A stretch of DNA of 30,011 bases from a virus: the IMG/VR virus record IMGVR_UViG_3300027739_000155, positions 1 to 30,011 of that record, one strand, 5' to 3'. A model generated the notes under the pieces. That model was not told where the DNA came from and did not search any database. It saw only the letters and a program-made list of their open reading frames with translations. The translations under genes were made by a program, and so were the position numbers. Below, piece after piece: positions 1-9,667 of this stretch (position 1 is the stretch's first letter; every line of letters begins with the position of its first letter).

Positions 1-165
1 AGAGCCAACCTCTACAGAGCCAACCTCGACGGAGCCAACCTCGACGGAGCCAACCTCGTCAGAGCCAACCTCTACGGAGCCAACCTCGACGGAGCCAACC
101 TCGTCAGAGCCAACCTCTACAGAGCCAACCTCGACGGAGCCAACCTCGACGGAGCCAACCTCCGA
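1..165 (+). repeat. Tandem 15-bp repeats encoding the pentapeptides (11 units visible)
   Basis: Eleven consecutive 15-bp units start with AGA or GGA and carry the invariant core GCCAACCTC. They differ almost only in the last codon (TAC, GAC, GTC, finally CGA). The order of last residues is Y-D-D-V, Y-D-V, Y-D-D-R, so there is a higher-order repeat of 60 bp with one 45-bp version missing a unit. The array continues left of the window. The lack of synonymous change points to recent slippage or unequal recombination. Confidence 0.95.
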
Positions 166-8433: not shown

Positions 8434-9201
8434 ATGGCAGTAAACGACAACGGTTTTGTGACCATTCACCGGAAGATCATGCAGTGGGAATGGTACACCG
8501 ACGGCAACACCATGAGGCTATTTGTGCACCTCCTGTTGCTTGCCAATCACCGTGACACCAAGTGGCGCGGAGAGGTCATTCGTAGGGGACAAGTACTTAC
8601 CGGGCTTGACAAGTTGTCGAAGGAACTCGGGCTTTCGGTGAAGAAAATACGCGTCGCTCTTGAACACCTAATTTCGACAAGCGAAGTGGCAAACAGATCG
8701 ACAAACAAATATCGTGTTATAACGATAAATAATTACGCCTCTTATCAGGATAAGAAAGAGTGTAAAGGGCAAGCTGAAGGGCAAGCTAAAGGGCAATCAA
8801 AGGGCAATCAAAGGGCAGCATCCAACAATGATAACAATGATAACAAGAATACTCTCTCTTACGAGAGAGAGGCGCGCCAGCTGAAAAAGGCATCATTTTC
8901 CCCGCCTTCACTTGAAGAGTCGGTCGATCACTTTGCCTCGAAGGGCTGGCCGGTGACCGAGGCTGAGAAGTTCTGGCATCACTTCAATTCGAACGGGTGG
9001 AAGGTCGGAGGGAAGGCTCCGATGAGGTCATGGGAGTCTGCAGCACATAACTGGATGAAAAACGCGAAAACTTACGGAGGACACAATGGCGCAGGTATCA
9101 ACGGCTATCGAAACGGAACTCTCGCGCATCAGCAGCCACTCACACCTGAGTGTTTGCCTGGAATCATGCAGCGCATCGCAGACGATCCTCGATACACCTG
9201 A
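8434..9201 (+). CDS. Phage replication initiator (O/DnaD-like winged helix)
   Basis: The N-terminal 100 residues (GFVTIHRKIMQWEWY, then LFVHLLLLANH, and TGLDKLSKELGLSVKKIRVALEHL) form the winged helix-turn-helix pattern of phage replication proteins that bind the origin. A hydrophilic linker (about residues 108-150) with K-G-Q and N-N-D repeats follows. The C-terminal domain (about 160-235: SVDHFASKGWPVTEAEKFWHHFNSNGW..., SWESAAHNWM) is seen in many such initiators. It should recruit the helicase loader and helicase. The linker-coding DNA carries repeats that behave like iterons, as in lambda O. The next gene overlaps its 3' end by 116 bases. Confidence 0.82.
   Translation: MAVNDNGFVTIHRKIMQWEWYTDGNTMRLFVHLLLLANHRDTKWRGEVIRRGQVLTGLDKLSKELGLSVKKIRVALEHLISTSEVANRSTNKYRVITINNYASYQDKKECKGQAEGQAKGQSKGNQRAASNNDNNDNKNTLSYEREARQLKKASFSPPSLEESVDHFASKGWPVTEAEKFWHHFNSNGWKVGGKAPMRSWESAAHNWMKNAKTYGGHNGAGINGYRNGTLAHQQPLTPECLPGIMQRIADDPRYT
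8764..8820. repeat. Five iteron-like repeats: candidate replication origin
   Basis: Five direct repeats of AAAGGGCAA-type DNA lie head to tail at 8764-8775, 8776-8787, 8788-8798, 8799-8809 and 8810-8820. The spacing is 12, 12, 11 and 11 bases. The last two steps are not multiples of three, yet the DNA motif persists while its reading phase changes (KGQ, then KGN, then RA). This argues for selection on DNA rather than protein. The flanks are AT-rich: a dyad TATCGT/ACGATA at 8710-8727 on one side and AACAATGAT repeats at 8824-8841 on the other. The spacing of about one helical turn suits an initiator array. Confidence 0.6.
8852..8871. other. Eight-base-pair hairpin beside the iterons
   Basis: CTCTCTCT and AGAGAGAG are separated by TACG and form a perfect 8-bp stem with a four-base loop. 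It lies 31 bases after the iteron array and just after an AT-rich segment (8821-8850). It is inside the initiator gene and has no following T-run, so a terminator is unlikely. A structural element of the origin is the more natural reading, but this is unproven. Confidence 0.4.
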
Positions 9202-9667
9202 CGGATCATGCGTTTCGGTTTCAGTCTACTCGGGAGAACGGACGAAGCGGGGTGTGGCGACCGCAATAGCGATGATTGGTAAAGCTTTTCCCGGATGGAG
9301 CGAGGAGCAGGGTGATGTGCTTCGTGATCGGTTCGCTGAAAACGGATTCTCAGACGATCGGATGATTGATTCGGTAAAGCATGTCATCGACACCTATGAA
9401 GGATACGGACGCATACCGAACGTCGCCAACTTTATCAGTTTTGACCGGAAAATGAAGCTCTACACCTATCGGCAGATGGATGATTGTGTTCGATCAGGGA
9501 AGGCGTCTGAGAACGATTTCTCCATTGCCATCATCGACCGGGTCAGTGGGTGCCGCTCAGCAGAAGAGCAGGAAAAGAGCGGCCCATACTGGATCATGAA
9601 GGTCGAGGCCAGGAGAATGAAAATCAGGACGATTGAGTGCAAGCCATCAACAGGGTGGCCGGACTGA
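9086..9667 (+). CDS. Unknown protein in the helicase-loader position
   Basis: This is a 193-residue soluble protein. The ATG at 9086 is supported by GGAGG at 9076-9080 and gives an unusual 116-base overlap with the initiator gene. The next in-frame Met is residue 63. The first 45 residues look less protein-like because of the overlap. The core (GKAFPGWSEEQGDVLRDRFAENGFSD, IDTYEGYGRIPNVANFISF, KMKLYTYRQM) is predicted mostly helical. I do not recognise a named family. A gene directly after an O/DnaD-like initiator is commonly a helicase loader (lambda P or DnaC role), but no Walker A motif is visible, so an AAA+ DnaC-type loader is unlikely. A P-like adaptor remains possible. Confidence 0.75.
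   Translation: MAQVSTAIETELSRISSHSHLSVCLESCSASQTILDTPDGSCVSVSVYSGERTKRGVATAIAMIGKAFPGWSEEQGDVLRDRFAENGFSDDRMIDSVKHVIDTYEGYGRIPNVANFISFDRKMKLYTYRQMDDCVRSGKASENDFSIAIIDRVSGCRSAEEQEKSGPYWIMKVEARRMKIRTIECKPSTGWPD

Follow-up and report, generated by a model that had tools for sequence, protein, structure and literature searches.

A predicted phage replication origin within the linker-coding DNA of its initiator gene, with iterons that covary with two residues of the initiator's DNA-binding domain

Does a tandem repeat that slips out of the reading frame in the middle of a phage gene serve the protein that the gene encodes, or does it serve the DNA itself? The question is raised by a 30,011-nt stretch of viral DNA (hereafter the window; IMG/VR record IMGVR_UViG_3300027739_000155), in which five AAAGGGCAA-type copies lie on the plus strand within the gene at 8434-9201. 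The copies span 8764-8772, 8776-8784, 8788-8796, 8799-8807 and 8810-8818, which bears out the spacing of 12, 12, 11 and 11 bases given by an earlier, sequence-only reading of this DNA, and each has a GGCA core (at 8768-8771, 8780-8783, 8792-8795, 8803-8806 and 8814-8817); the fifth adjoins an AT-rich element. The same reading held that the repeats ignore the reading frame. This is true of the 11-bp steps that lead to copies 4 and 5 but not of copies 1 to 3, which are in frame: the codon phases run 0, 0, 0, 2, 1, copy 4 being the first to leave the frame. Since copies 4 and 5 are each shifted by 11 bp, the same DNA is translated as KGQ, KGN and QRA (KGQ-EGQ-KGQ-(S)KGN-(Q)RA). No second cluster of the iteron motif occurs elsewhere in the 30-kb window.

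It is conceivable that the stretch is simply a low-complexity, KGQ-type protein linker that grew by slippage and whose DNA has no function, as it does encode a predicted disordered linker and its first three copies are in frame. However, a period of 11 is not a multiple of three. When the gene was recoded synonymously with the phage's own codon usage, none of 20,000 recodings yielded five copies and none of 20,000 reproduced the 19-nt exact run at lag 11. Thus, protein coding fails to account for the iterons, as the sequence-only reading had argued, and the synonymous nulls reject the protein-repeat explanation. The array is built with the phage's rarer codons CAA and AAA, the genome preferring CAG (133:29) and AAG (178:66). 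Two further observations detailed below, that the repeat motif tracks residues of the helix-turn-helix and that an array in one relative persists beyond the stop codon of the open reading frame (ORF), also speak against slippage, to which we give next to no credence.

What kind of protein is encoded here? The product of 255 residues is a DnaD-like or lambda-O-like initiator by PHROG, tblastn and AlphaFold2, consisting of an N-terminal winged helix-turn-helix domain (wHTH), a disordered linker and a small helical C-terminal domain. It belongs to the DnaD and phage replisome organizer family by its match to PHROG 2514, 'DnaD-like helicase loader' (E 1.7e-28), while its match to Pfam PF09681 (Phage_rep_org_N) has an E of 0.054, under the gathering score. 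It is also homologous to O proteins: in tblastn the wHTH alone matches those of HK022, Sf6 (gp43), phage L and the P22-like ST160 (gp18) at E ~1e-7, along with DnaD-like loaders of Staphylococcus, Bacillus and Listeria phages and proteins of Vibrio and Cellulophaga phages, and a BFVD match is the O protein of phage ECP1 (rmsd 1.4 over 81 columns). AlphaFold2, run with a 50-row alignment of relatives, places the winged helix at residues ~12-107 with pLDDT ~95 (coding part of the domain 8452-8754, plus strand, residues ~7-107; the predicted reader of the iterons) and gives residues 112-136 low confidence, consistent with a disordered linker. The iterons and the AT-rich repeat fall in the DNA that encodes this linker, so that, as in lambdoid-type origins, iterons lie inside the initiator gene directly behind the DNA-binding domain, with an AT-rich element beside them. 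A sequence search of the PDB with the wHTH profile returned only weak transcription-factor matches. By structure (VIA-align), the best matches of the wHTH include the RepA_N initiators 4pql, 4pt7 and 5kbj (Z 8.1-8.7 over ~96-108 residues), with CRP-type wHTHs scoring equally. The RepA_N plasmid initiators (pSK41, pTZ2162; 4pt7 and the iteron-bound 5kbj) may have a similar wHTH fold, but at 9-11% identity, at a Z level with CRP-type wHTHs and with a different C-terminal domain.

If the repeats matter as DNA, they should be retained in relatives irrespective of what they encode. In a first set of 66 non-redundant genes, partly selected on the peptide NNDNNDNK, the stretch from the wHTH to the NNDNNDN codons contains 665 exact 7-nt matches at lag 11 among the matches listed, as compared with 36 +/- 10 in synonymous shuffles, and lags of 22, 33 and 44 are likewise elevated. 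Because this set is biased towards the peptide, the lag-11 test was repeated on 128 non-redundant genes found by the wHTH alone, those of known phages included. Lag-11 runs of at least 8 nt occur behind the wHTH in 92 of these 128 genes among the matches listed (null mean 12.5, maximum 21), whereas control stretches of equal length from the same genes give one run within the wHTH region and none further downstream. The motif itself varies among phages (AACAAACAAAT, GACCAACAACC, ACGACACAGAA and others), and in the Cellulophaga phage phi18:3 the motif of the window, AAAGGGCAAGC, recurs with a period of exactly 11 bp. When 131 genes among the matches listed are aligned on the AATG element, C peaks at -15, -26, -37 and -48, and all motif classes with an AAnAATGnn element share a single register of the array relative to the AT-rich 9-bp repeat (AACAATGAT in the window). 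In the Solobacterium phage SMO_1P (L291, 601-987), the replisome organizer ORF ends within the iteron array, and array and AT-rich tract run on into non-coding DNA past the stop, implying that the C-terminal half is missing or encoded elsewhere. In the nearest wHTH relative among the matches listed (L299), a GC-rich gene, the array is degraded. Overall, the alignment of relatives that the sequence-only reading had proposed as a check came out in its favour: the DNA repeats are kept while the residues, and even the repeat motif, vary.

Why should the motif vary? An answer emerges when wHTH and iteron columns are compared for covariation across 69 non-redundant genes, among the matches listed, of the subfamily to which the window's initiator belongs. 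The two strongest links join domain column 57 to iteron base 4 (z 17.7) and column 69 to base 1 (z 13.6; both z values are without full correction for phylogeny). In the window, these columns correspond to L58, where the first HTH helix begins (codon 8605-8607, plus strand), and K70, in the recognition helix (codon 8641-8643, plus strand). Residues K, Q and R at position 70 go with GGC, AAC and GAC, respectively, and R at position 58 is accompanied by C at base 4, any other residue there by A. Among the matches listed, Q70 occurs with AAC in 22 of 23 genes, R70 with GAC in 11 of 12 and K70 with GGC in 9 of 13, two more K70 genes having GGC out of register or GGGC; R58 accompanies C in 20 of 21 genes and a non-R residue accompanies A in 47 of 48, by residue table. 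Pairing of Lys with GG, Gln with A and Arg with G is chemically plausible. The window's own K70 and L58 call for GGCA, consistent with the rule, and a sister gene (L300) with the same scaffold and C-terminal tail but with R70 and R58 has a GACC array.

Since the wHTH proteins are related, these counts are not fully independent events. However, relatedness fails as an explanation because both matched pairs and switches follow the residue: among gene pairs with 50-60% identity outside the HTH, 84% of those with the same residue 70 also share the first two iteron bases, as against 4% of those in which it differs, and in nearest-neighbour switches the iteron tracks the gene's own residue 70 in 17 of 21 cases among the matches listed. 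On 37 held-out genes among the matches listed, all less than 80% identical both to one another and to the training set, the rule gave the repeated tetramer correctly for 33 and missed four (shuffled mean 7.8, maximum 18 in 10,000); six of the 33 successes, all of them K, had come in through a search for the iteron DNA pattern. These tests cover the subfamily of the window; in the 'W' subfamily the links are weaker and involve neighbouring positions. The repeats are under selection at the DNA level, they hold a fixed register to the neighbouring element, and their bases covary with residues of the protein.

Which elements flank the array, and which of them belong to it? The AT-rich 9-bp repeats noted earlier are present at 8824-8846 (plus strand) as 2.6 copies, AACAATGAT AACAATGAT AACAA, and form a predicted DNA unwinding element. 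The GC content of 8821-8851 is 26%, as compared with 55% for the whole window, and the element is among the ~20 least stable of the window's 29,971 40-mers. In an unbiased pattern scan for all synonyms of NNDNNDN, AAT stands at codons 2 and 5 in 28 of 28 initiator genes, as compared with 22 of 58 other places; elsewhere in initiator genes, 60% of Asn codons are AAT. The exact AATAATGATAATAATGAT seemed invariant in the first gene set, itself partly selected on NNDNNDNK. We reject it as a universal feature: among the matches listed, the strict form AAYAATGAYAA is found in 37 of the 128 wHTH-selected genes and a looser form in ~86, the rest having other A-rich tracts. On its bottom strand, the AT-rich element has a T every three bases, reminiscent of the oriC target of Bacillus DnaD, the 5'-TnnT-3' element (PMC10201434), a likeness that we offer as a lead only.

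A perfect 8-bp hairpin, CTCTCTC-TTAC-GAGAGAG, is likewise present where it had been described, at 8852-8871 (plus strand). Its existence makes it possible to imagine that the repeats act in the mRNA, through structure or translation control, together with this hairpin, whose TNAC loop is common to some relatives. Yet the repeats are head to tail without a pairing partner, their 11-bp period and their covariation with the HTH fit duplex DNA, and the hairpin is absent from most relatives, a stem of at least 8 being found in 9 of 128 among the matches listed (1.8 expected). An mRNA role therefore seems very unlikely to us. On the same count we rejected the hairpin as a general part of the origin; at most it characterises some of the relatives. 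Hairpins with a C(TNAC)G loop and otherwise unrelated stems lie 3' of the AT-rich element in the window and in L300, L282, L286, L288, L294 and L467, the carriers including HK022 and Sf6; in HK022/Sf6 and Klebsiella phi13.1 the differences between stems are paired changes. The third proposed flank, a dyad at 8710-8727 (TATCGT-GTTATA-ACGATA, 6-bp arms around a 6-bp centre), did not survive comparison: it is conserved in one of 181 genes among the matches listed, the window's own. We reject it as an origin part; probably it is a by-product of the sequence that encodes a conserved wing (VITINNY).

What, then, does the array do? The iterons very probably are docking sites for the phage's own replication starter protein. 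It is highly likely, judging from sequence comparison, that 8764-8871 is an origin of theta replication inside the linker-coding part of the initiator gene, read by the initiator's wHTH. The likeness to the lambda origin, with a different motif, that the sequence-only reading had drawn is supported, the dyad excepted, by the homology to O proteins, the persistence of the repeats and the covariation with the HTH. We infer binding, melting, helicase loading and origin firing in the window phage as follows. On the five GGCA-centred iterons, wHTH protomers would line up head to tail along a single face of the DNA, each occupying one helical turn, and K70 and L58 would be among the residues responsible for specificity. 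The bound array, at its fixed distance from the AACAATGAT repeat, would stress and open that repeat, and the opened strand together with the C-terminal part of the initiator, perhaps also with the product of the next gene, may load the replicative helicase. Some observations weigh against this reading: GC skew across the 30-kb window, examined as an origin marker, shows no clear switch at 8.8 kb, the array of L299 is degraded, and the strict AT-rich motif is confined to a minority of the wHTH-selected genes.

Alternatively, the array could be an operator, the initiator binding repeats in its own gene to regulate transcription or dosage by autoregulation or handcuffing, all the more so as covariation with the HTH speaks to the specificity of binding and not to its consequence. 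However, the array lies deep in the gene, far past any promoter, its register relative to a strand-unstable AT-rich element does not vary, and the homologous or analogous sites of SPP1 and lambda are origins (PMC6316719, PMC7466680). We consider an operator unlikely and favour the origin.

An origin inside an initiator gene is of a kind already known, from the putative iterons of phage L and the proven oriL of SPP1. In phage L, six 11-bp repeats, TGTCCAACGGA, lie within gene 18 and are the likely origin according to its authors, who also remark that every related initiator seems to have iterons of its own (PMC8022706). In the database records of Sf6 and phage L, the depositors mark a putative origin at the corresponding position. 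Salmonella phage L gene 18 and Shigella phage Sf6 gene 43 share with the window a homologous wHTH (tblastn E ~1e-7), 11-bp iterons (TGTCCAACGGA) directly behind the domain and then an AT-rich stretch, which in Sf6 is also followed by a hairpin, with a C(TGAC)G loop. They differ in their iteron motif, in a two-cluster array and in having no AATGAT repeat, and their origin is likewise predicted only. In SPP1, gp38 (G38P) binds direct repeats inside gene 38 beside an AT-rich unwinding element, and theta replication from oriL has been reconstituted in vitro (PMC6316719). The window resembles oriL in having direct repeats and an AT-rich unwinding element within the initiator gene, SPP1 being proven experimentally and the window predicted; G38P is likened to the window's initiator by origin layout. 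SPP1 also possesses another origin, oriR; in the 30 kb of the window no further array is seen. Lambda-type O proteins bind iterons and the single-stranded DNA of an AT-rich tract (PMC7466680). Both the order of iterons and AT-rich tract in mid gene and the wHTH-linker-C-terminal domain layout recur in the window, but lambda has four iterons of ~20 bp, while those of the window are 9-11 bp cores spaced one helical turn apart.

More generally, a large family of initiators with a DnaD-like or O-like wHTH in phages of Proteobacteria, Firmicutes and Bacteroidetes probably has its origin in its own linker DNA, with 11-bp iterons whose sequence is set by residues 58 and 70. We found no report of an 11-bp rule across Gram-negative, Gram-positive and Bacteroidetes phages, nor of a fixed register or a two-residue code, in the papers searched, a literature with few subscription papers and without older work on phages of lactic acid bacteria. 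Since the iteron sequence would be set by two HTH residues, protein and origin could switch specificity together within one gene, and the family would offer many natural cases in which a single coding sequence holds both a DNA-binding protein and its site and the two change in step. Most phage replication origins are unmapped; if the origin reading is true, those of many uncharacterised phages could be read from sequence alone, and if the 11-bp rule and the code hold, both origin and specificity become predictable for a family whose annotation goes no further than 'DnaD-like helicase loader' or 'replisome organizer'. The two-residue code is directly testable by swaps of one or two residues.

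The surroundings of the array offer some minor observations. The gene at 9086-9667 overlaps the 3' end of the initiator gene and has no match in Pfam or PHROG; by position, its product could be a helicase loader. The C-terminal tail of the initiator, NGTLxxQQPxxxxLPGIMQxIADDxR (window 9120-9201), is common to L300 and to gene 12 of the Chlorobiaceae phage CV-1-33 (L293, 1972-2712), where it is preceded by a DUF1376-annotated N-terminus and where no 11-bp array is seen; compared at the sequence level, the two genes point to an exchange of the half that binds DNA. The contig opens (window 2-162) with 10.7 tandem copies of a 15-bp unit, GAGCCAACCTCGACG.
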